From contig CAJHZI010000830.1 of NCBI GenBank assembly GCA_905160935.1, positions 41,001-105,000 of the forward strand: a DNA stretch of 64,000 bases, written 5' to 3'. A model generated the notes under the pieces. That model saw only the letters and a list, made by a program, of their open reading frames with translations, was not told where the DNA came from and made no database searches. Both the position numbers and the translations under genes were made by a program. This stretch comes from Enchytraeus crypticus. Taxonomy: Eukaryota; Annelida; Clitellata; Enchytraeida; Enchytraeidae. This document shows positions 43,022 through 63,831 of this stretch, in pieces (positions within the stretch are counted from its first letter, which is position 1; each line of letters opens with the position of its first letter).

Positions 43022-43088
<67 letters not shown>

Positions 43089-43340
43089 CATATATATATA
43101 TATAAGGATTTTAATTATTTATAGTGCTCGATGTTGTCATTGATGACTGTAGCACAGTAATTGTTGTCATGTTATGTTATAATATTGTTATATATATAAA
43201 TGGCTCACTTTTCCAGCATTCTTGGCCTCTTCGACTCCAGATGGAGCGAGATCAGCATCGTACCAGCCACAGAACCTGTTCTCAGCGTTCCAGGCGCTCT
43301 CCCCGTGCCGCACCATCACAATCTTATACGTCTCCGCCAT
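40093..43340 (-). CDS. PGAM: 2,3-bisphosphoglycerate-dependent phosphoglycerate mutase
   Basis: Six exons, minus strand: 43340-43209, 42949-42740, 42321-42238, 41343-41245, 40651-40543 and 40214-40093 (TAG). Phases agree throughout, giving 251 residues against 254 in human PGAM1. Glycolytic enzyme of the cytosol that interconverts 3- and 2-phosphoglycerate through a phosphohistidine. Residues 11-14 are the RHGE motif with the nucleophilic His, followed by [37 protein letters not shown] contains the catalytic Glu. [16 protein letters not shown] holds the second catalytic His. The C-terminus AAQGKAK matches the family tail that closes over the active site. Nothing is missing, so it should be active. 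The exon 2 donor (AAG followed by GTCTGC) is weak but the join is dictated by homology. A SINE lies 33 bp inside the intron after exon 4. Confidence 0.96.
41075..41211 (+). mobile_element. SINE family A copy in PGAM intron 4
   Basis: Full length, GGCTGGAGCCAGTGGCGATG to TTACCAGCTTTT, antisense to the gene and 33 bp from the exon 4 donor. Confidence 0.82.
41346..41520. repeat. (AATC)n repeats beside PGAM exon 4
   Basis: CAATCAATCAATC with CAGTAAAT and GGTCAATC variants, starting directly upstream (in gene direction) of the exon 4 acceptor. Similar AATC arrays border exons 3 and 6. Confidence 0.9.
42540..42718. repeat. CAATCAATCTATATATCAAA minisatellite
   Basis: Five near-identical units of about 35 bp combining (AATC)n with CTATATATCAAA, in PGAM intron 2 just beyond the exon 2 donor. 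Confidence 0.9.
43028..43102. repeat. (TA)n microsatellite in PGAM intron 1
   Basis: About 57 bp of pure TA with a CATACA break, followed by a family G fragment (43118-43160). Confidence 0.97.
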
Positions 43341-44763
43341 CTCTTGAGTGCTGCTACCTAAATAGATGCCAACCATATCACACATCAACTATGTACAATT
43401 ATATACGTATATGTACGGGTATAATCTAGATGCATCAAATTTAAATAGAGATGATGCATGCCTGTATTGCATAGAGATGATGTATGCCTGTATTGCGTAA
43501 TGAGTAATCGTAACAATTGTTGGGATATGTAAACTATACCTACAATACAATACTATTTACTGGCTTTGATCGGCATCAAAAGCTTTAGCAAAACACCTAT
43601 TAGGAATCAAATCTTTATCAAGACAGCCATTAGGAAAATACTTCAGGACTCGGTTGTATATAGTTGAATTATAGATAAAGGCTAATCTTGGGAAAGTACT
43701 ACTACTAAAAATAATAATTATTAATCTTATTCTTATTAGATAACTAACAGACAAATCTCACGATAAAGTGAGCTCTTGCACCAGCGAGCCAATTACAGAA
43801 AAACTGCAATTCTTTTGATAGATTTGGAAGAGACATCATTAGGCGGCAGAGATGAATTCTTACCTAAAATATTTGAGATCACTGATATTATGTTGATATC
43901 AGCTGATCGACGATGATTGACCTTCAGAGTCGCTAAGGTCACGGCAGGTGCCCGCACCAGCGTTACCACTGCATCACGTACTCACTTCAAAATGTTAACA
44001 CTGGTTATAGAATGGAGCTTAAAATAAAGGATTATCAAATCTAATTATCTAACTGCGTCAATAAGTAGGCTGCAGATAGGCTTAATTATGACTTGAAAGA
44101 GAAATATCTCAGAATAATTCTTTAGAATAATTATCCAGATTTCAGGGTCGATGACTTCTAAAAGCGGTTCTCCCAGCAGAGTTCTCACAACTGCCTCATC
44201 AACGCCTGTTCAGGGGAGTCACCGTCGTGGTGGATTGATAACAGATGAAGTGGAGACGGGCGCTGCTGGAGCCAAAAGTTGTGGATTCAGGGCAATGTCA
44301 CCCGCTGCTGGGACCAGCAACGTTTAATAATAACAATAGACTAAATTATAGCAACATACTCTATTTTAACATTTAAAAAAAACAATAATTCTTTAGTTTT
44401 ATCTGTGCCAATATTTATTCTGTTTCACAGAATTCTTCCTTCTGACCAATTCAATGCTTCTGACCTCCTCCAATATTACAAGAAAATCTTATCTAAAAAT
44501 ATTGTATTTTCAGATGTGTATATTTGACAATCTATTTGATGACTAATTTATATTTACATGCATGTGATTCTTGATTTAGAAGCGTAAAGAACTAGTAGTA
44601 CGTGTGTTTAAATTATATATCGTAACGTTACTTTGTATGTGAACATTCATAATTGCGGACCTTAATCTCTCCCTCTATCATTATCCCTTCCTCAGTCACT
44701 CTCCCCCTCTCTATATGTCTTTCTTTCTTTCTCTCTCTCTCTCTCTCTCTCTGTGTCTCGCTC

Positions 44764-46014: not shown

Positions 46015-47718
46015 TCACCTATGTTTAGCTGGTACAGTTACAGGCAGAATATCCGCAGCGGGAAAACCGAATATAAATAGTAACAGGGCAGCAAGGAATA
46101 GCGATGGTCCAATCAGCAGCCACTGTAGATCTCCGAGAAACGTCTGGAAAAACCTGTAACAACACGACAATGCACAATATATATATATATATGTATATAT
46201 ATATATGATATATATATATATTATAAATTATAATCGAATTGCAAAAAGCAAATATAACTTAAAATTAAATATGATTTGCATAGAGGATTGATTGATGCTC
46301 GATCGATCGATTGATTTCGCGATTGATTGATTGATTGATCGACTGATTGAAGGACTGATCGATTGATTGATTGATTGATCGATTGCTTGAAGGATTGATC
46401 CACTGACTGATTGATTAACTAATTAATCGAATGTATGATTGAAAGACTGAGTGGAAAAGTCTTAAATAGCGGATTGACTGATGATATGATGTAGGGCAGA
46501 CAGGATTTGAAATAGTCTATTTGTATCCTACCCTAGTTAAACTTGGATTCAAGGGAAGATGATGATGATGATTGAAGGACTGACAGATTGATTGATTGAT
46601 TGACTGATCGACTGATTGAATGATTGCTCGACTGATTGATTAACTAATGAATCTACTGTATGATTGAAGGACTGATCGATTGATTGATTGATGGTGACAG
46701 ATACCTGATGGCGGTCATATCTTTCATCAAGACGCCATGTTTATTTCTACACTCGACCACCAGGTGCCCTCGTGCTGGTCTCCCAGCACTCGAGACGTCT
46801 CGTAGAGTATGTGATCCTCGGTGTGTTAACATGTGCGTGTGTAACAGCACGCCACCCAGAGATACCTGTGTCACATCAACACATAGTGCAACATACAACA
46901 CATATCAACGAATAATGTCACATATCAACACATAATGTCACATATCTTGACATAAAGTCACACATCTACACTAAGTGACACCACATGAACAGTGGCTATA
47001 GTGGGAGAACGCAGGGGAACTGTGTTCCCTAGCTTTCATTATTTTCGGAGGTACGTTCCCCTGTTAGGGGCCCATATCATAGATACTAGGAGATCTGTAA
47101 ATATATTACAGGGGCCCGAAAAATTCTGACCGTTTCCGTTATCTCAATTCCCGCTTTAACTTCCTGAGTGAACGCCTATAAACAATCCAGACTTGTCAAT
47201 AGTGGATCTCTCTCAGGTAGAGTTCACAAAATAGTTCATAGAGATGTCACTCCACAAAAACTAGTTCAAATATTTCATAACCCGCACACTACTCGATAAC
47301 TGCGAGCTATCACTCCAGCCTGGCAGGCTGGGGCCAGTGACGATGTCGGTAAGATATTCGATCGCGGATCAGTATGTGCGGGGTTCAAATTCTGGGCTCG
47401 CCTGTCACTGACATCGCTTTCGAGTAAGGAAACTGACGTTAACATTAGTTTTTTTAATCAGTTTTAAGTAGTTGTATAGTTAATTAATCAAACTACCTTC
47501 AACTACCGTAAACTGAACTTCTTCTATTACTACTTGAAACTGATACCAGGAATAATTTACTTATCAGTAAGTACGGACTGTTAGACTACCTGACAGTGAT
47601 AAGGGCCTGACTTATCACTGATGTCGTTTATCAGAATACTGACGTCAAAGATGGCCGCTGTGATTTCAATCACGTGACCACTTGATACAGGCGAAACTAT
47701 CCACAGACCTGACTGTAC

Positions 47719-47752
<34 letters not shown>

Positions 47753-50700
47753 TGATCAGTCAATCAATCAATCAAACAACAATTTTTTCAGTCATCAGTC
47801 AGTCAATCAATCAATCTGAATTCACACTCCATAAATCAACAAGTTAATCCCTTCACAAAATGTATCTCCATAGCTTTGAGTATGCCTGAATCTTGGAAAA
47901 TATTTGGCTTCTGAGGTGGCTTCCCATTGCTTTCCTCAGTTCTTTCTTAATCATCTATAAGTTCAGTTACCGGTTGCTCAATTCTCCAGCCATCTATTCA
48001 TCCATTCATCAGCTATTCACTCAGTTCATACCTTGTCCAGCAGGTTGGTGAATTCATTGTGACTTCTGAACTCTGATGGCTGAGCCAGTCTTCTCAATCT
48101 CAACTTCTCCTCATCATCTAAATTCCCATGATACGGGGGAATTCCACTCTGCTGGGAAACACCTTCCCACTGGGAATTTTCGTTGGTGGAATTTGTCTGA
48201 AAGAGACAAATCAGAGCACCGTCTCTGGTCGCTACGAGAAACTCGAGGCCAGGATTAGTTGGAATGAGGTCATGTGATAGTAGACTGACCAATGAGGACT
48301 CTCCAAGCTTGACCCGGTTACGACAGGCTGGCTTGATGGTCATCATATTGAGCGTTCCTTCATTAGACAAGCTGACCTGCAGTATACAGTACAACACTGT
48401 CCTACCTGTTCAGTACACAGTACAACACTGTCATACCTGTGCAGAACACAATACAACACTGTCCTACCTGTACAGTGCACAGTACAACACTGTCACACCT
48501 GTTCAGTACACAGTACAATATAGTCATACATGTGCAGTACACAGTACAACATTGTCATACCTGTTCAGTATACAGTACAACACTGTCCTACCTGTTCAGT
48601 ACAGAGTACAACACTGTCATACCTGTTCAGTACACAGTACAACACTGTCATACCTGTGCAGTACACATTACAACACTGTCATATCTGTAAAGTACACAAA
48701 CAAAAGCGGAATAGCTTTAGTCGAAAAAAAGCAGAAGTGCTGTAGTCGCGTTCTGCACGTGTCGTAGAAGGCGACTAAAGCGATAACCTACGTCAGAGAG
48801 GGCATTCGATAGGTGAGCGCCTAGGCTCCAGAAATTGCTAAAAAAATTTAAACGTGGAAAATTTTCAAATAGGGATGATATGATGTAAGACAGAGAGGAT
48901 TTAGGACAGTTTATTCGTATTCCGACCCTGGTTGAACAGGGATTCAAGGGAAGATGGTGGTGATGATGATGAATTGAAGTTATTATTACCTTTAATTTAT
49001 TACATTATATTACTAATATTTACAAGTATAGACAAACCAAAGCAGTTATCTCAGCTCCGTGCATGCGGGTTAGCAATGGAGACACGGATAACGACTGACC
49101 CAGTTCTCTTGGCCAATCAGGTAGCAGTCTGCCAGACTCTCCATCCAATAGCCACACTTGTCTACATACAACAACACAGACATACAGGTGAGGCATGCTC
49201 TAGTAGACATGCTCTAGTAGACATGCTCTAGTAGGAATGCTCTAGTAGATATGCTCTAGTAGACATGTTCAATCAGTACACACTGTACAGCACAGTACCA
49301 ATGCTCTATCAGTAGACACTGTACAGCAGTACTAATGTTCTATCAGTAGACACTGTACAGCAATACTAATCTTCTATCAGTACACACTGTACAGCCGTAC
49401 TAATGTTCTATCTGTACACACTGTACAGCAGTAGTAATGTTCTATCAGTACACACTGTACAGCAGCATCATAGCTCTATCAGTACACACTGTACAGCAGC
49501 ATCAATGCTTAATCAGCGCTAACCCGTTCGTACTTGCCACGAGAACTTCCAGTTTACCATCTTCATTCAGATCAACCACTCTACCGCTCGCACCAATCCT
49601 CAGCGTCTCATCTTTGCGTCGAGAGTCTTGTTTCTGCTTCGTAGGCGGAGCCTCGGCTAACTCCACCTCCCACAGCCTGGAGCCTGCGTTACTATAGCAA
49701 CTAACCACGCCCACTGTGTCTGTCACAATTATCTCCAGCACACCATCCCTATCCAGGTCTGCCGCTAACACCTGTATGACGCAATCAACGAGGATTAATG
49801 CGACCAGGATAATATCGAGCACTGTTATGCCAAACAACAAACTGACGAGTAAAATATAAGCAGTCCATCGTATAATATACATACAGAAAGACTGAAAGTA
49901 ACTACACTCTGCTCAATGTTGTCATGGACGACAGTAGCACTCATTATTTTTAGTATGCATTGTTGTTGCAGTGAAGTCCTTTATTAAAATATGTTTTGAT
50001 TTGTACCACCACCGCAATAGGCGAATCTTTTCTGCTGACTTCCAGAAAAAACAACATAAACGAATATTAAATATAAAACAAACAAAAAAAATTAAAACCG
50101 GCACAATAGACTAGCTATGCAGTTAGGATTCAGCTAGTATATGTGCTTCACAAACATTCCACATCTAACTCAGCAAACGAGATAGTGCTATATCAGCGTC
50201 GTCTCAGCTAGATGTTTGTTTAACTCTGTTTTAAACTTTTAATATTACAAGCAGATTTCTAACCAATATGGCCGTAAACAAGTGAGATAAAGCTCTGTTT
50301 AAACCTCAAAGCAGTGTAAACTACGGTTTGGTAAAATTTGGTATTCTCGAAGCTGGCGAAATCTCAACAGTGGTTTGTTTAGGCTACAGACTGGTCACAA
50401 TTTGATATTCTGCAAGCTTGAATTGTAAGTTTGAATCACGGTTTAAAGAGAGGATATGCCTCTCTTTAACGCCGCTACGCCTCTCTTTTCGGAGGTTTAC
50501 ACCAAGATTTAGTTAAACCTCCGTCCAATCAAACATGGCCGCTGTGCTCAAAACGTGACGTCACGAGAGCAGTCCAATCAAACATGGCCACTGAGCTACA
50601 GCGAGACGTCACGTGAGCCGTCCAATCAAACATGGCCGCTGAGCTCAAAGCGTGACGTCACGTGAGCCGTCCAATCAAACATGGCCGCTGAGTTCACATC

Positions 50701-53700
50701 GTGACGTCACGTGAAAATGTTAAGCAATCAGCTGATACCTGTGTGTGGACAGGCTCAATGTGGAGAGGAAATGCAGACGTCTGAGATTGGCGGCCATCTT
50801 GATAGACGACGTGAAGTCTTCCAGCGGCCGTGCCAATCAGCGTCTCCAGTCCACGTCGTGCTGGGTCAAGGTCAATCACAGTGGGCGTGGCAAATAGGTA
50901 GGCTGGGTACTCAGAGTTCCTCTAGTCAATCAATCAATCAATCAATCAATCAATTAAGAAATCAGTCAATCAATCAATCAATCGGTCAATCAAGCAATCA
51001 ATCAATCAATCAATCATTAAATGAATCAATCATTCAATCTATCCATTACTCAATCAATATATCAAACCAGTCAGTTAACAAAATAATCAGTAAGTCAATC
51101 AATTAATCAATTAATAAATAATTATCTTTCTTTGATCAAATATCGCAAGTCGCAAGTCTAACTCAATATTTAGTAACCTTGGTAAGATCTAGATGTATGG
51201 TGAGGTAGGGCTGCATACCTTGGTGAGATCTAGATGTATGGTGAGGTAGGGCTGCATACCTTGGTGAGATCTAGATGTATGGTGAGGTAGGGCTGCATAC
51301 CTTGGTGAGATCTAGATGTATGGTGAGGTAGGGCTGCATACCTTGGTAAGATCTAGATGTATGGTGAGGTAGGGCTGCATACCTTGGTAAGATCTAGATG
51401 TATGGTGAGGTAGGGCTGCATACCTTGGTAAGATCTAGATGTATGGTGAGGTAGGGCTGCATACCTTGGTAAGATCTAGATGTATGGTGAGGTAGGGCTG
51501 CATACCTTGGTAAGATCTAGATGTATGGTGAGGTAGGGCTGCATACCTTGGTAAGATCTAGATGTATGGTGAGGTAGGGCTGCATACCTTGGTGAGATCT
51601 AGATGTATGGTGAGGTAGGGCTGCATACCTTGGTAAGATCTAGATGTATGGTGAGGTAGGGCTGCATACCTTGGTGAGATCTAGATGTATGGTGAGGTAG
51701 GGCTGCATACCTTGGTGAGATCTAGATGTATGGTGAGGTAGGGCTGCATACCTTGATGAGATCTAGATGTATGGTGATGTAGGGTTGCATACCTTGGTGA
51801 GATCTTGATGTATGGTGAGGTAGGGCTGCATACCTTGGTGAGATCTAGATGTATGGTGAGGTAGGGCTGCATACCTTGGTGAGATCTAGATGTATGGTGA
51901 GGTAGGGCTGCATGCTTGTCAGGTTGAAGTAGATCAGCGCAGAGACGAGATAATTCTCACTCAGTTCAGTCATGTTCACCTCAGCCACAGCCTGTGCAAC
52001 TCTGAATCATCATCAGCTATGAATCATCAGCGGCTAGGAATCATCAGCTATGAATCATCAGCTATGAATCATCATCAGCTATGAATCATCATCGGCTATG
52101 AATCATCATCGGCTATGAATCATCATCGGCTATGAATCATCATCGGCTATGAATCATCATCGGCTATGAATCATCAGTGACTGTGAATCATCAGCGACTA
52201 TGAATCATCAGCGACTATGAATCATCAGCGACTATGAATCATCAGCGGCACTACGGCATAAAGCAGAGCAGAGAGCCGAGGCGGATGAATACAGACAGAT
52301 TGGACGTCAGTATTGCACCCAGCACACAGAACAGAGGCGTATGAGTACAAATGGATAGGACATTAGTATAGCATCAAGCACACAGAACAGAGGTGGATGA
52401 ATACAAACAAGACTGGACATCACTATTGAACCGAGCACACAGAACAGAGGCAGATGAATACAAACAGACTGGACATCACTATTGCACCGAGCACACAGAA
52501 CAGAGGCGAATGAATACAGACAGAGTGTAACCTGTAGTCATCGAGATCAAAGTAGTAAGAGACTGGAATAATGAGCTCCTCCGTCACTCCGTCTTCATTC
52601 ACGTCTTCCACGACTGCAGTGGCTAGAACATGAGGGTCCACGTGAACGTAATCTACACTCTACAATCAATCAATAAATCAATCAAATGATTGATCGATCA
52701 ATCAAGCCATCAATCAATCAAATGATAGATCGATCAATCCATCATCAGTCATCAGATATATCAATCAATTAATCAGTCTATCGGTATTATCATTATCTAT
52801 CATTACCGAGGTTAAATCAAGTGAATTATCTAGGAATGGCAGTTGTAATGTAGAGAATGGCATAGTGCTAACATTAATCTGCATCATTATTTCATTAATG
52901 TTTCTTTATATAAATTTAGCACAGTGAGTGTCTTACACCTCAGTGCTTAGCTTCATCAGAGGCTACTGCGTGCTCGATGATTTGGGTATATCTACATGTC
53001 CTATGACGGCTAGACCATTGGCAACAACAAGTAGATAACACTACAACAACATTACAACCTAGTGCATAAAGATAGATCAATTTGTTACCACACCGGTAAA
53101 GCTTGCTTGATATCATCTAGGATGAACTGATGTATGAGCTCCTGATCGGCCGTCACCTGCTTTCTGAACCAATCCCTGTCCACTGCTATCTTCTCCAGCT
53201 GTCAATCAACAGAGATCAACCAATCAGCTGTCAATTAACACAGACCAACCAATCAACTGTCAATCAATACAGACCAACCAATCAACTGTCAATCAATACA
53301 GACCAACCAATCAGCTGTCAATCAACACAGACCAACCAATCAACTGTCAATCAATACAGACCAACCAATCAGCTGTCAATCAATACAGACCAACCAATCA
53401 ACTGTCAATCAATACAGACCAACCAATCAGCTGTCAATCAACACAGATCAATCAATCAGCTGTCAATCAACATAGATCAACCAATCAGCTGTCAATCAAT
53501 ATAGCAAGCTGTCAATCAACATCATGCCTGAATAGCAACAAGAGCAACAGAGAGCAGAGACCTGGTGCTGCCTGCCAGGGATTGGCTGTCCATCAGGAGT
53601 GAGGACTAGAATGCTTCCGCTGGAAGAGATCACGAGTATATCCAGCCTGCCATCTCCATCGGCATCAAACTGTTCATAACACATCATAATTATATAATCA

Positions 53701-55231
53701 GTAACTACACCATGGTTTATCGGATCTACGTAGTGATTAACAATTTATGACTCATTCACAGAAATAGCTAGTATCGTTTATTTGTTCATCGCAGCACAGA
53801 TTATACAAACAATAGGTGCATGAAGGAAGGCAACGGGAAACCACCTCAGAAGCCATATTTTCCCAAGCTATAGGCTACATAAGGTATGAATAAGGCATTG
53901 ACTTTGTGAAGGGATTAACATGTTGATCTAAGGAGTGCTCTTATGGAGCGAGAAAACAGACTTTGAGTATGAATATGTACCTTGAACCTGCCACTTGACA
54001 GTGCACTGAAGAAGAAGAAGAAGGTGCATGTAGTTAGATAAACAAATAACAATACAAAAGAAGCTACCATAAAAGAGCCATAGCCCTGTTTGGTAATATC
54101 ATAATTAGTAGCTATAGCAGAGTCAACTTGAGTCTGAAATACAAAAAAAATTCTATTACATTACCAATACATTCGTTCCTGTGATGGGACACTGAAGAAT
54201 AGACCTACCGCAGTCTGCAAGAGACGACTGAGCTAGAACTAAGTAGGCAATGAAAAATCACCTCAGAAGCGATATTATTCCGTAAGTTGTCGATTATCAA
54301 GCAAGTTAACTATATATTCAGCCAAAAGTTCATTTAAACACGCACAACATGAACATATTAAATATCACACCAAATAAATATGACTTAAATATGAAAAAAT
54401 ATTATAAATAAATGGATATTATTATTACAAATATTATCAAACAAATGAATAACTATTTAACAAAAGGGACACATATAATTACCAGGATAGGGCTGGAATG
54501 AAAAGTCCCATGATCAATTCTAAACGGCCACCCAGCACCTTGCGCAGATCCTCGCGCAGTTTTCTCTGCGCCGTGAACGTAGCTCCCGTCCACTGCGCGC
54601 ACAACATGCACGTCTCCACTGAAGGTTGTTGTGACAATTTCAAGGTCACCGTCTGCATCGACGTCGGCTATGAGCGGCGCTGAGCTGATAGGAGCAACAC
54701 TGAGCTCCCGGCTCCACGCTACAGCGAGATCTGGCAAACATCTGCGGTAAATAAGATAAGAGACAGGTTTAGAGAATATTATATTAAATAGACACGTTTA
54801 GACAACATTAGATAATATATAAGACAAATGTAGACAAAGTTAGCCAACATATGAGACAAATTTAGACAGCATTAGAAATCATGAGACAAATTTAGACAGC
54901 ATTAGAAATCATATGAGACAAATTTAGACAGCATCAGATAACACATATGAGACATATTAGGGAATGCCTCGTGGCGCAGTGAGTACAGAGCTCGCCTCTT
55001 GTACGAGAGGTCATTTATTCTGAATACTGAATTGCTGTAACTAAGCTAAAATTGTAGCATTTATATAGGAAATAATTTAGGAAAAATTAGTCGAAAGATT
55101 GCATACCTTCGTTTATCAATGCCAGCGTACTGCTGACCGTTCAGAGGCACAAAGATCAGTAGTGCGGAAATAATTAAGACAGCAGATGAGATATTAGACT
55201 TTTTATTAGGCAGAGTAAGTATGCACGGCAT
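46015..55231 (-). CDS. DEX1-like FG-GAP repeat membrane protein
   Basis: Twelve exons, minus strand: 55231-55107, 54741-54483, 53669-53562, 53198-53094, 52659-52532, 52001-51875, 50921-50739, 49771-49524, 49161-49038, 48376-48032, 46865-46705 and 46153-46015 (TGA). All phases close, giving 683 residues. An N-terminal hydrophobic signal (SSAVLIISALLIFV) and one C-terminal transmembrane segment (LLIGPSLFLAALLLFIFGF) flank a lumenal or extracellular beta-propeller-like region. Calcium-binding FG-GAP motifs recur: DVDADGDLE, DADGDGRLD, DVNEDGVTE, DLDRDGVLE and DLNEDGKLE. Order and sequence (HSSPIL, FATPTVIDLD, VVECRNKHGVL) match plant DEX1, a membrane protein needed for pollen wall formation, as remembered. 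Animal function is unknown to me; a role in calcium-dependent matrix or membrane trafficking is only inference. Several introns start at once with tandem arrays anchored on the splice site. Alternative: another integrin-alpha-FG-GAP protein such as ITFG1, which fits less well. Confidence 0.85.
46865..46980 (-). repeat. ACATATCAACACATAATGTC array at exon 11 acceptor
   Basis: Five or six degenerate 20-24 bp units beginning exactly at the acceptor of exon 11 of the DEX1-like gene and extending into the intron. Confidence 0.7.
47326..47462 (+). mobile_element. SINE family A copy
   Basis: GGCTGGGGCCAGTGACGATG through GGGGTTCAAATTCTGGGC to AACATTAGTTTTTTTAATCA; antisense within intron 10 of the DEX1-like gene. 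Confidence 0.78.
48376..48700 (-). repeat. 31-bp array anchored at DEX1-like exon 10 acceptor
   Basis: About eleven 31-bp units of CAGTACACAGTACAACACTG plus TCATACCTGTT. On the minus strand each unit contains TACTGAACAG followed by GTA, echoing the true acceptor TATACTGCAG followed by GTC. The first unit, which abuts the exon, is two bases shorter. Plus-strand open frames here are repeat translations. Confidence 0.9.
48755..48970 (+). mobile_element. Family E element
   Basis: TGCACGTGTCGTAGAAGGCG, TACGTCAGAGAGGGCATTCG and TTCCGACCCTGGTTGAACAG, ending in GATGGTGGTGATGATGATG. Confidence 0.7.
49193..49510. repeat. 14-bp and ~33-bp arrays between exons 8 and 9 of the DEX1-like gene
   Basis: Five units of ATGCTCTAGTAGAC (49193-49270), then seven units of about 33 bp with CTATCAGTACACACTGTACA and GCAGTACTAATGTT. 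Together they fill nearly all of this 362-bp intron, reaching the exon 8 donor at 49523. Confidence 0.9.
50521..50716. repeat. Four ~49-bp units with CCAAT, GGCCGC and CRE-like palindromes
   Basis: Each unit has GTCCAATCAAACATGGCCGC followed by GTGACGTCACG (third base variants in unit 2). Unit starts near 50523, 50571, 50620 and 50669. The array lies within intron 7 of the DEX1-like gene, 23 bp past the exon 7 donor. The motifs resemble CCAAT-box, YY1-like and CREB/ATF sites. Confidence 0.85.
51177..51914 (-). repeat. 41-bp x 18 array of the DEX1-like exon 6 end and its donor
   Basis: Eighteen head-to-tail 41-bp units with constant register (GATCTAGATG at 51186, 51227 and so on to 51883). 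On the minus strand a unit is GT plus 39 bases ATGCAGCCCTACCTCACC to GATCTCACCAAG, i.e. the last 13 codons of exon 6 plus the donor GT. The first unit is the real exon end (51875). Frequent CTC/CTT variation is synonymous in the exon frame. All copies keep AAG before GTATGC except one with an extra ATCAAG-type change nearby. Confidence 0.97.
52002..52250 (-). repeat. 15-18 bp array at DEX1-like exon 6 acceptor
   Basis: About 14 units of TGAATCATCATCGGCTA / TGAATCATCAGCGACTA that begin at the acceptor of exon 6 (minus strand GATGATTCAG). So exon 6 is bordered by tandem arrays on both sides. Confidence 0.9.
52262..52531 (-). repeat. ~60-bp array at DEX1-like exon 5 donor
   Basis: Four units of about 60 bp containing ACAGAACAGAGGCGGATGAA, TACAAACAGACTGGAC and ATCACTATTGCACCGAGCAC, ending exactly at the exon 5 donor. 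Confidence 0.85.
53198..53520 (-). repeat. 29-bp x 11 array anchored at DEX1-like exon 4 acceptor
   Basis: Eleven 29-bp units on the plus strand of CTGTCAATCAACACAGACCA plus ACCAATCAG. On the minus strand each ends ATTGACAG followed by CTG, identical to the true acceptor and first exon codon (GATTGACAG, CTG). The array continues almost to exon 3 at 53562. Confidence 0.95.
53822..54015 (+). mobile_element. Family D element
   Basis: GAAGGCAACGGGAAACCACC to GACAGTGCACTGAAGAAG; the copy most similar to 484-690. It lies antisense in intron 2 of the DEX1-like gene. Confidence 0.7.
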
Positions 55232-55568
55232 GGCTAAACTGATTGTTTAAAATTTGTAATCTGAAACAAGTCGTTAAGTTAAAAAAATAGAGATCCTACT
55301 TAGGGTCAGTTCGATGTCATTATATACAAGTTAATACAATGTATTAAATGCTAAATATAGCCCAATTTGTTAGCAATTTAATAACAATATGAATTACCAA
55401 TTCAGAGATGCATTGAAATGTGGTGGGTTAAAAATATAGGCTATAAGAAACCAATAAAAAATACTCTTATATATGCACCAAACCGAACAAGTTGACTAAA
55501 CTGCCAAATGATATGAGGCTTGATCAGAGACCTTGCAATAATAAATTAATTAAAAAGTAAAAGTAAAG

Positions 55569-55845
55569 TATACACGCATTATAGTAAAATGATCAACTAT
55601 GTTTATATTAATACCACATGTTTAAGTGATACTAATTTCAACTATGTTGATATCTACCACTTTTAATAACACATGTTTAAACCGTTAGGCAATTTAATCC
55701 ATTTTCCGTGTAACCATTCCTGGGAATGCCCGAGGTTTTACTCTTAGATAAGCGCGGCTGGGATTCGAACCCACGAGGGTTCCATTCACCTCATGGTCTG
55801 TCATTTAAAACTTCATGACGTTATTCCTATTCTATTATGACATTC
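55569..55845 (-). mobile_element. SINE family B copy
   Basis: Reverse copy with an internal duplication of the GATCAACTATGTT region (55594 and 55637); GGGATTCGAACCCACGAGGG is the reversed B box. Confidence 0.78.
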
Positions 55846-55894
55846 TAAGTAATAACATACTACGTAATTGCTCAATAATGAGAGTTCTTAGGGA

Positions 55895-55941
<47 letters not shown>

Positions 55942-56444
55942 GCTAGTGAAATTTAGGCTAGTATATATCTTGGCCTATTTAATTTTCTATTTTTTAGTTA
56001 TTTTTAATTAAAGCTAGTCAATTATGGATAGCTATTAACTATTCATCAATTACAATTAGCTAATATCTATAAAGATAATAAATATTAAACTTCTTTTTTA
56101 TTTTAAATTAAATTTAAGCCTAAAACGATCAGGTTTGGGAATAAAGTTTTGTTGACATTTATCTGATTGGTCACTGTAAAGATGGTATCATGCATTTGAT
56201 TGGCTACGCTCAAATTAAAGACCTCTACTTTAATATAAACACTTCATTTGCGTATTCGACCCAATTCGTGCTGTGTTGTCTTAGTGCAGTTCAGTCAAAT
56301 AGGGCAACCAATCAGCAAAAGGTAAATAAAGTCTTTAAGCAGTTTTATTCAAAAGTTCCCAAGCAATGCCGCATATGTTTACAAGTGTTGTAGTAGAATG
56401 CTGTCAAATTTGGAAATAAGTTAGTAATGATAATAATTGCAAAA

Positions 56445-56560
56445 ATTTGACTGCTACTATCATCCGTGACAATGCCAAGCATGATTGAGACAAATACAAA
56501 TCTGAGAACAAACATAATGTCCAAAATAGAGTAAAAGGGATACAGACTTTTGGGAGCTCA
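56445..56560 (+). mobile_element. Family G dispersed repeat
   Basis: ACTGCTACTATCATCCGTGA, CAATGCCAAGCATGATTGAG and GTCCAAAATAGAGTAAAAGG. Lies 25 bp upstream of the TRAPPC10 start codon, so probably within its 5' UTR or promoter. Confidence 0.6.
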
Positions 56561-56584
56561 TGCGGAGTTTAAAAAGATTTAAAG

Positions 56585-59500
56585 ATGGATACCAAGCCCA
56601 TCGTTACATGTAAACAAACTATTTTAATCTTAACTTTCTTGCCTAATTTGAGCGAAGCTTTTGCATTTATTTTAGATGACAGTATAATCTCATAAATTCT
56701 AAAAAGAAATTGTCGTAGCAATTTTCATTCTAATTGCTGTATGCATCAATTACCTAATTGTGGTATAGTTTATTGCTGTAGTTCTGCGGAACTTAAAAAT
56801 GAAGCTGAAATATTAAATGGATTTTTAAGGCAGAATATGTTGTTGATAGCATATTTTCACCAGATCTTGATTGCAGTAGACATCATTTGCATATTAATCA
56901 ACTAATATTACAATTTGAAGATTGTCCAATATTATATTGTTGACAAGGGGCGTTGACTAGAAAATCCAAATCTTTAAACTGCTGTCTCTGATAACTTTAT
57001 TGATTTAACTTTCATTGTAGCTGTTAACTTTCGTTGTTTGATTGCACCCACTCTTAGGTCATGGCGATCAGGCTCTATTTTCCAAGCTGAAAGAGTTTGT
57101 TATTCGAGGTCTTCCGCGCGAAACTGTGGAATGGAAGAGGTTTGTGCATTGTATTTACAGTTTTGTTCTGTGCATTTGAAATAGCATTTGTTTAGATGCT
57201 CGATGTACTTCCTTTCAGTAGAAAGCACATTCTGGACCTCCAAATTCACTCTTAAGCATTCTATGGTGTCGGAAATGTAAGGAAAATTATGAAATGAAGT
57301 TTCTACAATAGTATTATTATGCATATATAGTTAAATGTATATGTAGTTACTGCAGTTGAATGTGTCATAAGCAACAGTTTGATTTCTACTGCATTTGATT
57401 GTATATCAAATGGCTAAATGTAAGCTGAATAGTTGTAGGACTTACAGTAAATGTTTGTTTTCATCTGAAATATTGAGTTTCTTTGGCTTTTTTTGATCAC
57501 CGGACTGGCTTTCGTTTAGGACCTTACTTCTCCTCAGCACATTTCTTTTGCAGATTGGTCTGGGTGAATTGATCTGTAGTGATGTGTACTGTTGGGGACG
57601 TCCCTGACATCATCCCTGGATGAGGAAACGGACGTTAAACCTTTATTATGACTATTATCAATTGTACTAACAGATCATACGGCAGAGCGTCTCGAATGAT
57701 AAAGGCCGAGGTGAATTTTGTGCCGTTCAATCCAGACATCCTACCCTCCTCCGACGAGTGGACGCTGGTGGGGCGGCCTTTTTTTCACACGTACTGGACA
57801 GATTGTGTGAGTGCTATAATGACCTGCTGATGACTTGCTCTCTCTATCTCTCTCTGTCTGTCTCTCTTTCTCTCTCTCTCTCTCCAGAAATCGACCGAAA
57901 ATTAAACAAACGAATGGGAGGGTAATCATATACTGGACATTGTTGCCAGTTTGCACTATCAATTGCAAATGTATGGTTTAGTATTATTGAAATTATTACT
58001 AAAAGCTGGTAAAGCTAATGTTAATGTCAGTTTCTTTACTCGAAAGCGATGTCAGTGACAGGCGAGCCCAGGATTTGAACCTCGCACATACTGATCCACG
58101 GTCGAATATCTTACCGACATCGTCACTGGCTCCAGCCAGTATGATTATTATTGTTATTATTATTATTATTGTTACTATTCAACAGGATGCCGACACTTAC
58201 AAGGCTAGCGTGAGGGAGGAGATCATTGATTGGCTGTCAGCTCTCAGAGAGAAGGACTGCTCTGATTGGTTGATTATCTGCATCGTGAGTGAGGAGGTAC
58301 GAGTGCGCTCAAAGCTGCTGCGTAACTCCGTCTACAACAAAGTCAAGAGCGACTTCTGTGGCAAAAATCCCGACCGGTGGGTTTTCCCTAATTTTTTCTA
58401 CAGTTGAATCGTTTAGATTCCTTCATTTTTAATGCCTGGCTGTGTTATTTTCTTTGAAGCGGTCTCTGCTGCCAATGAATTTAATAATTTTCATTTCGAG
58501 ATCTCTCTTTGAGTTATTAATCTTTTGTAGAAGAAATTGGAAATTTACATAGACTCCGTGTAATTTAATATGAAAATTGTATACATTTGTTTATTGGCAC
58601 GTTATTGACTTCTTACTTCAGTAAACATATCAATCTAACAGTCAATCAGTCATTGAATGAATCAGTTTGTAAATTAATTATGAATCCATCAGTCACTAAG
58701 GTAATTAATCTGTCAATCAATCAGCAGCTGAAATAATCAGTAGGAGAATGACTGAATCAATCAACTAATCTATCAGTTAATGAAATAATGAATCAAGCGG
58801 TCAAATAATCAATCAAGTAATGATTAAATAAATCAGTCAGATGAATCTTATCAATCAGGCATGGCATCAATCAATCCATCTATCAATCCATCAGTCAGTC
58901 CATCAATCAGTCCATCAATCAATCCATCAATCACTCAATCAATCATTCCATCAATCATGCCATCAATCAATCCATCAATCAATCCCTCTATCAATCCATC
59001 TATCAATCCATCAATGAATCCATTTATCAATCCATCAGTCAATCAATCCAATATATCATTGAGAGCATGAACCAGTCATGCCTGATGCTTGTGTAGATGT
59101 ATAATGCTGACTGAGCCGCTGCGCTCGGACGCTCGTAGCTCTGAGTCGTGGAACGCCGTGTTCTACAGGACGCGACTGCTGCTGCTGGACGCCTACAACA
59201 GGAGCCTGGACAGGTTTGAGGAGCACATGAGGGGCGAGAGAGAGAGACGCACCGAGAGAAACTGGAGCTTCTGTCGATACTTCTTGTTACAGGTTCTTCT
59301 TTCTTCTACTTCTTGTCGTTGGTTCTCTCATTCTCTCTTCTACTTCATGTCACAGGTTCTTCTTTTTTCTTCTTAATTTTATTATTTATTTTATTTATTT
59401 ATTTATTTATTGCTTTATTTCAGGCGTAAAAACTCATACATGAATCTTGCATATAGAACAATGCAACAAAAACCAGAAAAGCAAATAGTCTGCACATAAA

Positions 59501-60665
59501 TTGAGCTATAGGCCTAAAACAATTACTTATAGAATTAGGCATACAAGGCTATAATAGGCTCAGTACATCAAAACACTTAACTAGCATATTAGCATTATCC
59601 AGCAAGCACATTCTAAACTTTAATCTGTAATTTGATAGGATAGTATCAAGAGGTGCTGGTTCTTTCTATATCTTGTTGATTGATTGATTGATAGATTTAT
59701 TGATTGATTGTTAGATTGGTTGATGGATTGTTTTATTGATTGTTAGATTTGTTGATTGATTGATTGATTGATTGCTAGATTGATTGATTGCTAGATTAAT
59801 TGATTGATTGTTACATTGGTTGATTGATTGGTTGATTGATTAATGATTGATTGTAGGAGGAGCTAGCATTTTTCTATGAGATGCTCAGACTCTATGAGGA
59901 CTGCCTGGTTCAGTATGATGAACTGGATGCTCTCTTCACACAGTTTGTTGTCAATCACGCTGCTGGAGGTTTGCTATTGGCTGAGTTCTTCTAGTGGGAG
60001 TGGCTTCTATGTGTCAGTCTGTTATGTCATAGCTTCAACTTTACTGAATAGTTAAAACTATAATTACCATATGCCAAGCATTTTTATCCTATATGTTATG
60101 TTGTGCAATCTAATCTACTTTAAATATCTCATTGAGCAGCACTTCTTTATAGAAATCTACTTATTATACATCATTAGGCCTACTCATTAAAATAATAGTA
60201 GGCCTAACAAGAAAAATTATTATTATTATTACCATTGGTTTTGTTTACTATTATCAATATTATTGTTATTTTTATGATATTATTTTCATTTGTACTAACA
60301 AGAGTTGACAAGTACTTCTATCATCTATTATTAAAAGTAAAAAAAGCTTCGTAAATTATTATTTTTAATATAATAATAATAATTTTTATTACGACATCTC
60401 CACTGGCTCGAGTAAGTGGCAATGTCGGTAAGATAACCTATCTTGGATCACTATGTGTGGGTTCAAATCCTGGGCTTTCCCGTCACTGATATCGCTTTCA
60501 ACTGATGAAACTGACATTATCATCGGCCATACAGCTTTTTAAATTATTATTATCATTATTAGCTCAGCCAGTAAATACTACTGCTAGTGTCACCAGTGTT
60601 ATTAGTAGACAGATGTATTAAATTGATTATTAGTTATGTTGATATATTTACTATTATTTACTATG

Positions 60666-60699
<34 letters not shown>

Positions 60700-63600
60700 G
60701 TGTTTATTGTTGAACGACTGGATTTCAGTCCTTTATCACATATGATTGATTCAATTTATATCATATTATAATGTCTTCTTTACGTAGAATGAATATATCA
60801 TTAATGAAAAAAGACTCAAATCCTGGGCTTGCCCAGGATTTGAACCTCGCACATACTGATCCGCTGTCGAATATCTTACCGACGTCGCCACTGGCTCCAG
60901 CCAGTATACTATGATTATGACTATTATTAGTATAATTACTTTACTATATTTATTGTTGAACGACAGATCGCGCCGGTTGGCTGATAGAGTTTGCCGAGCA
61001 CCCGACCACTCGCTGGGACGGTCTCTGTCTCACTCAGCCGATAAACTTTGCCAAGCGGTCGATGATCAAAAGAAACGTCGCGTCGCTGCTGGATCTAAGA
61101 AACTACTTGTTCTCCCGCCAGTCCACGCTCAGACTTCTGCTTGGCAGAGCCTTTGAGATAGGCAATCATGCACTACCGTTTATACACAACTGCATCAGAG
61201 AATTGTCCATACTGAAGGTAGGCAATCATGTTCTACCATTTATGCTTGGAGAATTATATAATTTGATGGTATAACATTGAGCCGCTTAGTTTAGATAATC
61301 TCTTAATTGCCAATTTCTTATTAATCAGTGATCTAATAAAAGCTGAGTTCTGTGCATTAAGCCTATAACTAACTGATCCTCTGAATAACTGATTGATTGG
61401 TTGATTGATTTGATTGATTGGCTGACGCAGGTGGCTTTGCCTGTAGACGTGATTGACTGCAGGATGTTTGATTGATTGTCTATTGATTGATTGTTAGATT
61501 TGATTGATTGAGTGATTGTTTATTGATTGATTGTTTATTGATTAATTGATTGTTAGATTTGATTGAGTGAATGATTGTTTATTGATTCATTGATTGATTT
61601 GATTGATTGACGCAGGTGGCTATGCCAGTGGGCGCGATTGACTGCTGGGTGTTCTTGAGTTGTCTGGAGATACTGCGACTGTTGGACTCCAAGCTAGGAG
61701 ACTCCGAGGAGTACACGCTGCAGAGAGCAATGCTCAGAGACTATGCTCGCAGCAAGGTAAAGTAAACACGCATTATAGTGAAACGATCAACTATGCCGGT
61801 ATCTATCACTTTTTATACCACTTGTTTAAACCGTTAGGCAATTTAGACCATTTTCCGTGTAACCATTCCAGTGAATGTCCGAGATTTTACTCTCAGATCA
61901 GCGCGGCTGGGATTCGAACCTGCGAGAGTTCAATTCACCTCAGGATCTGTCATTTAAAACTTCATGACGTTACCCCTACGCTATTGAGACAAGGCAGCTC
62001 CCTCTAGTACGTTCTGTATAGGTTGGCCTCTCCAAGCACACCGGTACTTACCGCTTTAAACCAGTCATATAGCATTTGCCACTCCTAGTTCACCGGTATT
62101 AACCGTTTTAAACCATTTGTAAAGCCCTGACCACCCAGAGCCAGTAAAAAGCTGGTAAAGCTAATGTTAACGTCAGTTTCCTCACTCGAAAGCGATGATG
62201 TCAGTGACGGGCGAGCCCAGGATTTAAACCCTGCTCATACTGATCTGCGGTAGAATATCTTGCCATCGCTACAGGCTCCAGCAAATCTGATATCAACCGC
62301 TTTAAGCCGGTGATATGCAGTGGACTGGGCGTAGCTAGTAATGAAGTTGCATTAAGTCGTTTCTGCTGTAATATGTCGAAAAATAGTTGCTATCTTGTTG
62401 CGTATGATTAGTACTGAGATTCTATATCCAATATAACGATGACGACATCTGATGTATGAGTTATTGTAAGGTATTTACATTCAACAGGATTTGGCGTAAT
62501 GCTTTCATTATGTTTTAATTTATTTACGTACGTAATTTGAAATCAAAAGCTTTGAACGCCAATCCCGTGCATTTCACTTTGTTCTAATTGCAGCTACAAG
62601 AGAGGAATATGTAGTTTTATTGAATTTGTTAAGAATTTAGAGAAATTATTTTGATACGTTTGTTGAATTTATTATAAAATATCAGTTGCTTAACATTGGA
62701 CGCCTGTGCGGCCACGCTGCTGTGACCTCTATGGAAGAGTTTTCTCGTTCACTCAGGGATGATAGTCTGGAGAGAGACGACTTTGTAGGTCGTGCTCTTA
62801 AATCAATAGAATTCGAGGATGACGAGGGTAGTAATGCTTGGGGCGAGGGGTGACGGGTAGCTTAGGATTTACTATTCCATTTAACAATTTTAAAATGTTC
62901 GAGGTTATAATGGCCTAGGGTAAATGGTCGAGGTTATAATGTCCTAGGTTAAATGGTCGAGGTTATAATGTCCTAGGTTAAATGGTCGAGGTTATAATGT
63001 CCTAGGTTAAATGGTCGAGGTTATAATGTCCTAGGTTAAATGGTCCAGGTTATAATGTCCTAGGTTAAATGGTACAGGTTAAAATTTCATAGGTTAAATT
63101 CATTGCTTAGAATATCTTAGATTAAAATATCCTACGTTTTTCATTTTCAAACCCCAACCTTAGTTAAGCTGAAATTCAAGGCAAGAAGATGATGATGATG
63201 ATGAAAATATTTTGAGTTAGGATAATGTAAATTAAACTATTCTAATTTAAAATATGCTTGATTTGGATGTCTTAAATAATCACTTCTAAACTGGGTAGAA
63301 TATATACGTGTACGTTGATTTAATTTCCATTAAGTAATACATCAATACATTTATCAATACATCGGCTTTGGTTTTGATTTGGTTTAAATTTCAGTTCTAT
63401 CTTGTTATAGTAGCATATTTGTGTTTTAAAATTCCCTAGAATTATTTCAGTGATCATAATTATCAATGCCTCACAGCAAATTAAATAGCCTCTAGGAATC
63501 TGCTGCCTGTTTCGACTTGATATGTTGACTTAAATTGGCGTTGACTTTTGTGGTCACTATTATCTAGATTTGCCCCATTCTGTATGTGAACAGATTGCTC

Positions 63601-63831
63601 GGCTGGGTCCTCTTTATGATCTAATCTTGTTTAGATATTCTCTCTTATCTAGATATTCTCTCATATCTAGATATTCTCTCTTATCTAGATATTCTCTCTT
63701 ATCTAGATAGTCTATGTATGAGCAGATAGCTCGGCTGGGTTTTCTCTGTGGTCTAATGCCAGGCAGCAGTCCCACCTCTGAACAGCTCCATCTGGTGGTG
63801 GAGTTGTTAGCCGGTCTCGTGCGCACTGAAG
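56585..63831 (+). CDS. TRAPPC10: TRAPPC10 (TRAPPII complex subunit), 5' nine exons, continues past the right edge
   Basis: Exons 56585-56609, 57058-57139, 57674-57806, 58186-58376, 59097-59292, 59857-59968, 60967-61217, 61616-61756 and 63726-63831, phases consistent; about 412 residues of a protein usually near 1250. TRAPPC10 (yeast Trs130) is a core TRAPPII subunit, a Rab-directed exchange factor for Golgi and endosomal traffic. The first exon is only 25 bases (MDTKPIVT), with an in-frame TAA five codons upstream. Family blocks follow in order: GDQALFSKLKEF, LPRETVEWKRSYGRASRM, FFHTYWTDCDADTYKAS, DWLIICIV, SESWNAVFYRTRLLLLD, WSFCRYFLLQEELAFFYEML, LVQYDELDALF, SLLDLRNYLFSRQSTL, PVGAIDCWVFLSCLEILR and LGFLCGL with VELLAGL. 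Several introns have copied exon edges, and a second candidate ninth exon lies at 62686-62827. The final donor (GAAG, GTTCGT) is the least certain boundary. Confidence 0.93.
57487..57657 (-). mobile_element. Family C element abutting TRAPPC10 exon 3
   Basis: Reverse copy of the 5' part of 44764-45210: GATCACCGGACTGGCTTTCG, GTTGGGGACGTCCCTGACAT, GAGGAAACGGACGTTAAACC. It ends about 16 bp before the exon 3 acceptor, so the polypyrimidine and branch region may be element-derived. Confidence 0.75.
58001..58140 (-). mobile_element. SINE family A copy
   Basis: Full length in reverse: AAAAGCTGGTAAAGCTAATG to CACTGGCTCCAGCCAGT. It ends 45 bp before TRAPPC10 exon 4. Confidence 0.82.
58630..59065. repeat. 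(AATC)n / CAATCCATCAAT array
   Basis: Degenerate AATC repeats, then a purer ATCAATCCATCAATCCATC block (58865-59050) just before TRAPPC10 exon 5. An Asn/Pro/Ser/Ile open frame here is a repeat translation. Confidence 0.9.
59293..59362 (+). repeat. Copied donor edge of TRAPPC10 exon 5
   Basis: The exon ends TACTTCTTGTTACAG with intron GTTCTTCTTTCTTC; a second TACTTCATGTCACAG followed by GTTCTTCTTTTT occurs about 65 bp downstream, and a partial TACTTCTTGTCGTTGGTTC lies between. Reads as tandem duplication of the exon-intron border. Confidence 0.7.
59670..59856. repeat. (ATTG)n array ending at TRAPPC10 exon 6 acceptor
   Basis: GATTGATTGATTG with TTAGATTG and GGTTGATTG variants, running directly into the exon 6 acceptor ATTGTAG. 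Confidence 0.9.
60403..60538 (+). mobile_element. SINE family A copy
   Basis: Diverged plus-strand copy, CACTGGCTCGAGTAAGTGGC to GGCCATACAGCTTTTT. Confidence 0.7.
60826..60905 (-). mobile_element. SINE family A 5' half
   Basis: Reverse half-copy (GCCCAGGATTTGAACCTCGC to CACTGGCTCCAGCCAGT) preceded by an inverted CAAATCCTGGGC, giving a small palindrome. It ends 62 bp before TRAPPC10 exon 7, just as the 58001 copy precedes exon 4. Confidence 0.72.
61214..61255 (+). repeat. Copied donor edge of TRAPPC10 exon 7
   Basis: The intron begins GTAGGCAATCATGTTCTACC, matching exon 7 bases 61159 onward (TAGGCAATCATGCACTACC) at 22 of 25 positions. The donor GTAGGC itself is part of the copied segment. 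Confidence 0.8.
61421..61470 (+). repeat. Decoy acceptor copy of TRAPPC10 exon 8
   Basis: TGACGCAG followed by 38 bases (GTGGCTTTGCCTGTAGACGT and on) that match the start of the real exon 8 (61616) at 31 of 38 positions. Reads V-A-L-P-V-D-V-I-D-C-R then hits a stop in the ATTG repeat. It lies about 185 bp upstream of the real acceptor. Confidence 0.85.
61761..61987 (-). mobile_element. SINE family B copy immediately after TRAPPC10 exon 8
   Basis: Begins 4-5 bases inside the intron after the exon 8 donor (GTAA, AGTAAACACGCATTATAG) and ends CTACGCTATTGAGAC. Insertion almost on the splice site. Confidence 0.8.
62137..62283 (-). mobile_element. SINE family A copy
   Basis: Reverse, near full length, with a GATGATG duplication (AAAGCGATGATGTCAGTGAC) and B box mutated to GGATTTAAACCC. 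Confidence 0.75.
62686..62827 (+). other. TRAPPC10: Candidate alternative exon 9 of TRAPPC10
   Basis: An open segment after ATCAG reading LLNIGRLCGHAAVTSMEEFS, then FVGRALKSIEFEDDEG, with a possible GTAGTA donor at 62828. Its start (x-x-L/I-G-x-L-C-G) resembles exon 9 (IARLGFLCGL), and it has the same phases (0 in, 1 out), which allows exclusive use but not joint inclusion. The acidic C-terminal part does not match exon 9. Could instead be a chance open frame or unrelated gene fragment. Confidence 0.35.
62895..63105. repeat. 29-bp x 7 minisatellite
   Basis: Seven units of GGTCGAGGTTATAATGTCCT plus AGGTTAAAT, degenerating at the right end, in the intron before TRAPPC10 exon 9. Confidence 0.93.
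63592..63715 (+). repeat. Decoy acceptor of TRAPPC10 exon 9 plus 18-bp array
   Basis: TGTATGTGAACAG followed by ATTGCTCGGCTGGGTCCTCT copies the real acceptor TGTATGAGCAG and ATAGCTCGGCTGGGTTTTCT (63726). Between them lie about five 18-bp units of TCTAGATATTCTCTCTTA, pyrimidine-rich enough to serve as a splicing tract. Confidence 0.85.

Follow-up and report, generated by a model that had tools for sequence, protein, structure and literature searches.

Tandem arrays at exon borders of a probable annelid genome: border-spanning copies without a duplication hot spot, and sense TTGA arrays docked at acceptors

The window, the whole 64,000-nucleotide stretch of DNA examined here, contributed four genes to our analysis: a DEX1-like gene, TRAPPC10, PGAM and SLC35C1 (Table 1). 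Exons of the DEX1-like gene and of TRAPPC10 were placed with single-base precision. The DEX1-like gene, whose exons are numbered differently here from the earlier sequence-only reading, was in frame at the joins of all 11 modelled exons, and its product was 33% identical over 100% of the length to proteins named 'DEFECTIVE IN EXINE FORMATION 1-like'. Exons 2–9 of TRAPPC10 were matched between five aligned relatives of the 58 found (the annelids Paralvinella and Capitella, a millipede, a mollusc and a hemichordate), and exon 1 was matched weakly; the TRAPPC10 query gave no match in the PDB. The SLC35C1 model gave a full product in frame. The closest named relatives of PGAM were annelid (Helobdella 79%, Ridgeia and Lamellibrachia 77%, among the best 120 of 2035), the named proteins of highest identity to TRAPPC10 came from Capitella (66%) and Paralvinella (61%), and the host, judged from sequence, is probably an annelid.

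Table 1. Gene models and repeat features of the window
Feature	Position	Strand	Details
DEX1-like gene	46015..54741	-	11 exons modelled; 5' end of gene outside model
DEX1-like exons 1-6	54483-54741, 53562-53669, 53094-53198, 52532-52659, 51875-52001, 50739-50921	-	
DEX1-like exons 7-11	49524-49771, 49038-49161, 48032-48376, 46705-46865, 46015-46153	-	
TRAPPC10, first 9 exons	56585..63831	+	in-frame joins; tblastn with five relatives
TRAPPC10 exons 1-5	56585-56609, 57058-57139, 57674-57806, 58186-58376, 59097-59292	+	
TRAPPC10 exons 6-9	59857-59968, 60967-61217, 61616-61756, 63726-63831	+	
PGAM, 6 exons	40093..43342	-	complete in-frame product
DEX1 exon 5 donor, spanning array	51176..51913	-	41-bp unit, 18.0 copies, TRF score 1392
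TRAPPC10 exon 5 donor, spanning array	59278..59374	+	29-bp unit x3.2; 27/30 copy at +63
TRAPPC10 exon 7 donor	61160..61249	+	exon tail (from 61160) repeated as intron start 61220-61249
TRAPPC10 exon 8, copy of acceptor and exon start	61416..61445	+	185 bp upstream; 25/30 at -185
TRAPPC10 exon 9, copy of acceptor and exon start	63579..63608	+	132 bp upstream; 25/30 at -132
SLC35C1 intron 1	16322..17188	+	8 copies of (TTGA array, AG, exon 2 start)
PGAM stop codon	39915..40101	-	within 34-bp array
DEX1 exon 5 acceptor	52003..52249	-	17-bp array, last copy stops 1 bp away
DEX1 exon 9 acceptor	48380..48698	-	31-bp array stopping 3 bp away
DEX1 exon 3	53196..53501	-	29-bp array with TTGATTGACAG, 3 bp into exon
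DEX1 exon 6 acceptor	50926..51119	-	sense (TTGA)n stopping 2-4 bp away
DEX1 exon 4 acceptor	52663..52775	-	sense TTGA-rich array stopping 2-3 bp away
TRAPPC10 exon 6 acceptor	59676..59853	+	sense (TTGA)n stopping 3 bp away
TRAPPC10 exon 8 acceptor	61468..61610	+	sense TTGA-rich array stopping 4-5 bp away
PGAM acceptors of exons 3, 4 and 6	42321, 41343, 40214	-	sense TTGA arrays 4-7 bp before each

The test set, drawn from a single assembly, comprised 152 introns from 17 genes, namely the four window genes and 13 myosins located elsewhere in the genome, so that a single family supplied 13 of the 17 genes sampled. From 138 modelled myosin introns, 21 with a flanking exon below 20 bits were removed, leaving 117; ten introns of a later myosin gene (C410) were included without this filter. 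Exon borders taken from raw HMM match ends were too coarse, and a spliced profile aligner was used instead. Nearby copies of the 30-mer centred on each of 304 borders were sought, a scan that was added because TRF-only scoring overlooked duplicates that had diverged or were present in just two copies (those at TRAPPC10 exons 7, 8 and 9). The null for placement was obtained by placing 212 arrays at random across the 152 introns.

Several borders in the window carry tandem copies of exon sequence. The unit at the DEX1 exon 5 donor consists of the last ~39 bp of the exon followed by GT, and the array reaches 39 bp into the exon. The copy at the TRAPPC10 exon 7 donor matched at 22/30 positions (offset -58, 30-mer scan), and exons 8 and 9 each have one upstream acceptor copy, followed at exon 8 by the TTGA array, which runs on to 61610, and at exon 9 by an 18-bp array (63632–63713) between the copy and the real acceptor. 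The real exon 2 of SLC35C1 (17136–17354) lies downstream of its eight acceptor and exon-start copies. Some copies contain complete AG or GT signals, and some units have AG/GT-like junctions. Arrays also lie within 20 bp of the DEX1 acceptors of exons 3, 4, 5, 6, 9 and 10, the DEX1 donors of exons 4, 7 and 10, and the TRAPPC10 acceptors of exons 4 and 6, carrying little or no exon sequence. The observation, made from the letters alone, that many exon borders carry tandem copies is largely real: copies of exon sequence are present at DEX1 exon 5, TRAPPC10 exons 5, 7, 8 and 9, SLC35C1 exon 2 and the PGAM stop, and the other borders listed above are adjoined by arrays.

Such copies resemble the mirages of amphioxus, which the accounts cited here describe as minisatellite duplications of exon–intron boundaries in Adh3, globins, TnC and PGBD5, with units of 10–160 bp (PMC3087553; PMC3902484; Canestro 2002, cited via PMC3087553). 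In those accounts, as in our data, tandem copies span 5' or 3' boundaries, many contain AG/GT, and unit lengths are similar; here boundary-crossing copies occurred at both kinds of boundary (8/152 donors and 10/152 acceptors). The two cases differ in that splicing neutrality there had RT-PCR support, whereas what was observed here is continuity of the protein products, and in that the rate here was compared with intron interiors and was not raised. The amphioxus host is a cephalochordate and ours is probably an annelid, so these are mirage-like arrays and not the amphioxus set itself.

Exon borders are not a hot spot for duplication: 18 of 304 border-centred 30-mers (5.9%) had a copy close by, compared with 1071 of 7959 intron-interior points (13.5%) and 7 of 1147 exon-interior points (0.6%). 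The border rate is less than half of the intron-interior rate (ratio about 0.44), and the arrays crossing a border numbered 10 against 11.4 expected, which does not bear out the sequence-only reading's recurrent process amplifying splice-site-spanning segments. Arrays are nevertheless placed non-randomly near splice sites: 26 ended no more than 10 bp from an acceptor against 4.2 expected, an excess that is real and persisted outside the window in the myosins alone (14 versus 2.6, 117 introns), whereas 3 ended that close to a donor against 4.2. Sense TTGA accounted for 16 of the 26 arrays at acceptors. The non-TTGA arrays ending there numbered 10 against 3.3 (P=0.0016), and non-TTGA array ends within 40 bp of borders were about twice as frequent as expected (donors, 26 versus 12.1; acceptors, 24 versus 12.1). 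This non-TTGA excess is only loosely accounted for by the model proposed below.

The strong signal, not singled out in the sequence-only reading, is the docking of TTGA arrays at downstream intron ends in the sense orientation only. Of 56 sense (TTGA)n runs, 17 stopped 10 bp or less from an acceptor, against 1.07 expected, compared with 0/16 for runs of the complement TCAA, 0/17 for CT runs, and 6/362 (5.15 expected) for all non-TTGA classes with at least four runs. Six of the 17 genes had no TTGA acceptor, and the C410 myosin had 0/10. Partial whole-genome counts agreed with docking (TTGATTGATTGATTGNAGG, 633; TTGATTGATTGATTGYAA, 151), their ratio being 17 times the TTGNAGG/TTGYAA ratio in the analysed DNA, with the qualification that AAGG, a weaker acceptor, made up a third of the 100 NAGG genome matches listed and was often clustered (hand count). 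Among the titles and abstracts listed by a literature search that lacked most subscription journals, none dealt with TTGA arrays next to acceptors. A simple repeat directly upstream of an acceptor is familiar from CFTR exon 9, where the (TG)m(T)n microsatellite tunes the 3' splice site; here, by contrast, one tetranucleotide recurs at many acceptors of one genome with strict strand bias.

Among 5-mers, TTGAT showed the strongest enrichment over the final 50 nt of introns (47/135 introns versus 15.2; reverse complement, 12 versus 11.1), and in the 116 of 135 introns (those of at least 400 bp) without a nearby array it reached 9.5–13.3 per kb at -10 to -25, compared with 2.0 per kb at -100 to -200. 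UUGAU fits the branch-site consensus yUnAy. Other T- or TG-rich words were also enriched near intron 3' ends, and in the array-free introns the classical form CTRAY also had a peak (-20 to -25, 19.0 per kb), so the branch site may be a sequence other than UUGAU.

We consider it fairly probable that two overlapping processes, both ordinary in appearance, operate, untargeted duplication and UUGAU-seeded growth of TTGA at acceptors. Introns would fill with short tandem arrays through untargeted slippage or unequal exchange; where a unit happened to straddle a border, function would stay with the outermost copy (the 5'-most donor or the 3'-most acceptor) and the rest would become intron, and mirage-like arrays would thereby appear at the random-placement rate. 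Intron 3' ends carry UUGAU or UUG-rich motifs, some fitting yUnAy, and the UUGAU motifs may seed sense TTGA microsatellites. These would expand until they reach the AG and would be tolerated or used because each unit is a branch-site match and none makes a decoy AG. The data show the duplication rates, the excess in placement, the specificity for strand and motif, and the paralog-shared positions of myosin introns; from the sequence we infer slippage as the cause, a role of the motif as branch site and the identity of the copy used in splicing.

Pure selection, by which TTGA arrays arise anywhere on either strand and only sense ones at acceptors are kept as a splicing signal, is unlikely. It would fit arrays that sit tight against the AG, are strand-specific and recur at unrelated genes, but sense arrays are tolerated elsewhere (39 of 56 runs ended more than 10 bp from an acceptor), and within introns sense TTGA also outnumbers antisense (62 versus 17 of 2596 windows), which suggests a biased source. 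The sequence-only reading's slippage or repair targeted to transcribed splice sites, amplifying junction-spanning segments, could draw on the mirage-type copies and on the attraction of array ends to acceptors; it is nevertheless improbable, given a spanning rate that lies below that of intron interiors and matches the untargeted null, donors without an excess within 10 bp, and an acceptor excess to which a single motif on a single strand contributes most. If the TTGA arrays were tails of a transposon or introner supplying the acceptor, their single orientation and exact 3'-end position would be explained. We regard this origin as very improbable, since within the analysed DNA no common element was found upstream (masked, up to 600 bp) of the 22 TTGA-acceptor introns, dispersed-repeat matches occurred in 2 of the 22 and involved different repeats, and 10 of 13 myosin TTGA cases lie at paralog-shared intron positions. 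Birth of new introns through tandem duplication of exon segments that contain AGGT, also raised by the sequence-only reading, shares with our data tandem duplicates with splice-like motifs, including the AG/GT-like junctions and the TRAPPC10 exon 7 copy that starts at its donor, but is scarcely credible here: the two ends of an intron do not derive from one duplicated segment, donor and acceptor surroundings being alike at 20/30 or more in 0/152 introns (mean similarity 10.97 versus a null of 10.98), which excludes recent births and leaves room for old, diverged ones, and all 12 mirage borders tested in myosins (the one in C410 left out) lie at intron positions common to at least one paralog, although such sharing is frequent anyway (90 of 117 myosin introns are shared outside their own cluster).

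These results separate two look-alike ideas, in that boundary-duplicating minisatellites may be common without targeting and without making introns. They also point to a fast-mutating repeat that, in many genes, seems to be coupled to a core splicing signal, and make testable the relation of microsatellite length to 3' splice-site choice and the mutual shaping of splicing signals and repeat expansion. More tentatively, and with somewhat less than even confidence, we suggest that UUGA is a modular 3' splice signal genome-wide, an AG-free run of putative branch sites that replaces the usual pyrimidine tract and grows from single UUGAU motifs; differences in repeat length could then modulate splicing at hundreds of acceptors.

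At the other intron end, 3 of 16 TCAA runs began no more than 10 bp from a donor (0.30 expected). The idea that the two intron ends are paired was considered and rejected, a TCAA donor and a TTGA acceptor never occurring together in one intron. In two further cases left out of the counts, C189 and C668, TTGA runs lie directly before the first modelled exons.

Tandem arrays were mapped in 17 genes of the E. crypticus assembly (524 Mb, 802 contigs; the window is C727:41001-105000), namely the four genes of the window, 12 myosin-head genes outside it, modelled by spliced alignment with a profile derived from Pfam exon matches, and a thirteenth myosin gene, C410, added later. For the 12 myosins, 117 of 138 introns were retained, the 21 with a flanking exon below 20 bits being removed, and all 10 introns of C410 were retained. 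The total sample comprised 152 introns and 136,487 intron bases, 17.8% of which is covered by TRF arrays.

The sequence-only reading had proposed that arrays start at splice sites, which held for acceptors but not for donors: 26 of 212 arrays ended within 10 bp of an acceptor (4.2 expected), against 3 for donors (4.2 expected). Taken by themselves, the initial sets gave acceptor counts of 9 versus 1.0 expected in the window (18 introns) and 14 versus 2.6 in the myosins (117 introns). Of the 26 arrays, 16 were TTGA-rich, a class with 24 members overall. Among the 27 microsatellite classes that have four or more runs in the 152 introns, sense TTGA runs lay within 10 bp of an acceptor in 17 of 56 cases (1.07 expected), the complementary TCAA runs in 0 of 16, CT runs in 0 of 17 and TTG runs in 4 of 12 (0.17 expected), while the 26 non-TTGA classes pooled gave 6 of 362 (5.15 expected). 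In the 42-nt segment that stops 3 nt short of the exon (142 introns, C410 set aside), a TTGA 12-mer was present in 22 introns in sense and 1 in antisense orientation, compared with 62 and 17 of 2596 interior windows (Fisher P = 6.6e-11 for sense, pre-exon versus interior). At least one TTGA acceptor occurred in 11 of the 17 genes, C410 having 0 of 10, and typical examples end in TTGATTGATTGTAG and TTGATTGATTGCTGCAG directly before the exon. Titles and abstracts in the literature searched, whose coverage left out most subscription journals, held no report of strand-specific acceptor docking of one tetranucleotide. Arrays other than TTGA numbered 10 near acceptors (3.3 expected) and, within 40 bp of a border, about twice expectation on both sides; they could have been pushed up against an impenetrable exon, or insertions could be filling mid-introns.

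Separately, 3 of the 16 antisense TCAA runs began no more than 10 bp from a donor (0.30 expected), never sharing an intron with a TTGA acceptor.

Genome-wide, TTGATTGATTGATTGNAGG had 633 matches, those in tandem being non-independent, and TTGATTGATTGATTGYAA had 151. The sampled DNA gave a background of 102 TTGNAGG to 418 TTGYAA, a ratio that the array context raises 17-fold. A hand count of the free base in the first 100 of the 633 gave T 38, C 28, A 33 and G 1; the scarce G and abundant T and C fit acceptors, whereas the many AAGG, often tandem-clustered, fit less well. These counts are suggestive of a TTGA-acceptor association.

Of all 5-mers, TTGAT showed the strongest enrichment over the final 50 nt of introns (47 of 135 introns versus 15.2 expected; complement, 12 versus 11.1), with TG- and T-rich words next, and TTGAT was still elevated at -10 to -25 in array-free introns of at least 400 bp. 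UUGAU matches the branch-site form yUnAy, and a TTGA run is AG-free. A sole role for UUGAU is made less likely by the classical CTRAY, which has a peak of its own at -20 to -25 (19.0 per kb, array-free introns). We infer slippage in place, with UUGAU motifs as its seeds; this would account for both position and strand of the TTGA arrays, and the resulting arrays may be tolerated or used by the spliceosome. No common transposon was found in their flanks within the sampled DNA.

A process amplifying splice-site-spanning segments, as had been suggested, was not supported. When border-centred 30-mers were searched for copies of at least 22/30 within 800 bp, low complexity excluded, 18 of 304 borders were duplicated (donors 8/152, acceptors 10/152), fewer proportionally than intron interior points (1071/7959; exon interior, 7/1147); interior points overlap and are non-independent, and counts are given without a P value. 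The corresponding donor, acceptor, intron and exon counts were 5/117, 7/117, 764/6580 and 2/827 in the 12 myosins, 2/25, 3/25, 265/959 and 5/250 in the four window genes, 1/10, 0/10, 42/420 and 0/70 in C410, and 8/152, 7/152, 861/7959 and 4/1147 overall at 24/30. TRF arrays crossed a border 10 times, where randomly placed arrays of matching unit length would do so 11.4 times. The border rate, about midway between intron and exon rates, would follow from blind duplication with constraint on the exon half alone; borders are no hot spot for spanning duplication.

Recent intron birth by tandem duplication, also put forward earlier, would make donor and acceptor surroundings copies of each other. 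None of the 152 introns reached a donor-acceptor likeness of 20/30, and the mean match was 10.97, versus 10.98 for mismatched pairs. In the first 12 myosin genes, 90 of 117 introns were shared beyond their own gene cluster, and all 12 mirage-type borders lay in introns placed as in at least one other myosin (same column within 1, same phase). The evidence does not support the proposal and reads as older introns carrying new repeats. Passages of two amphioxus papers (PMC3087553, PMC3902484) call boundary-spanning minisatellites mirages and propose a part for them in intron gain; similar minisatellites here are a new occurrence, in an annelid.

Exon-border copies had been described at several window positions, and were borne out for TRAPPC10 exons 5, 7, 8 and 9, for exon 2 of SLC35C1, for the PGAM stop and for a single DEX1 border. 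At other DEX1 and TRAPPC10 borders arrays only abut, and for the DEX1 ones the description was approximate. Among the best 120 of 2035 matches, the nearest named relatives of PGAM were the annelids Helobdella (79%), Ridgeia and Lamellibrachia (both 77%), then the mollusc Potamilus (72%), with metagenome proteins up to 89%. For TRAPPC10, among named organisms, Capitella gave the top identity (66%, over 56% of the query), ahead of Paralvinella (61%, over 83%), and the best E-value belonged to a sturgeon protein (45% over 70%); five relatives (tblastn, 5 of 58 aligned) together matched exons 2-9, and exon 1 only weakly. The best named relatives of DEX1-like were molluscs (33%).

Features of the window and related sites (window coordinates unless a contig, C, is named)
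Feature	Position	Strand	Description
DEX1-like	46015-54741	-	11 modelled exons, 5' end outside model; all junctions in frame
TRAPPC10	56585-63831	+	first nine exons modelled; all junctions in frame
PGAM	40093-43342	-	6 exons, complete protein
SLC35C1 (exon 2)	17136-17354	+	3 exons, complete protein
DEX1 exon 5 donor			junction-spanning copies, 41 bp, 18.0 copies
TRAPPC10 exon 5 donor			junction-spanning copies
TRAPPC10 exon 8 and exon 9 acceptors			junction-spanning copies
SLC35C1 exon 2 acceptor			junction-spanning, 8 copies upstream
TRAPPC10 exon 7			exon-sequence copy opens intron
PGAM stop codon			inside 34-bp array
PGAM acceptors	42740-40214	-	sense TTGA arrays 4-7 bp before 3 of 5
TCAA donor sites	46704; L036 and L048 (myosins C332a, C129)		antisense arrays
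TTGATTGATTGATTGYAGG tandems	C173:227706-227973; C160:49942-50184; C144:408473-408589		spacing about 70-120 bp, suggesting further SLC35C1-like acceptor arrays
Open frame LLNIGRLCGHAAVTSMEEFSRSL	62684-62830		resembles TRAPPC10 exon 9 (RLGFLCGLMPG..., 63726-63831); possible duplicated or alternative exon
49-bp unit, four copies	50521-50714		GTGACGTCAC palindrome per unit, 24 bp from DEX1 exon 6 donor
Dispersed repeat, about 100 bp	24534-24635; 47342-47445; 58018-58121; 60422-60525	both	found via an intron of the C129 myosin
21-bp array, 23.8 copies	5445-5944		in long minus-strand open frame encoding TAAETSV repeats
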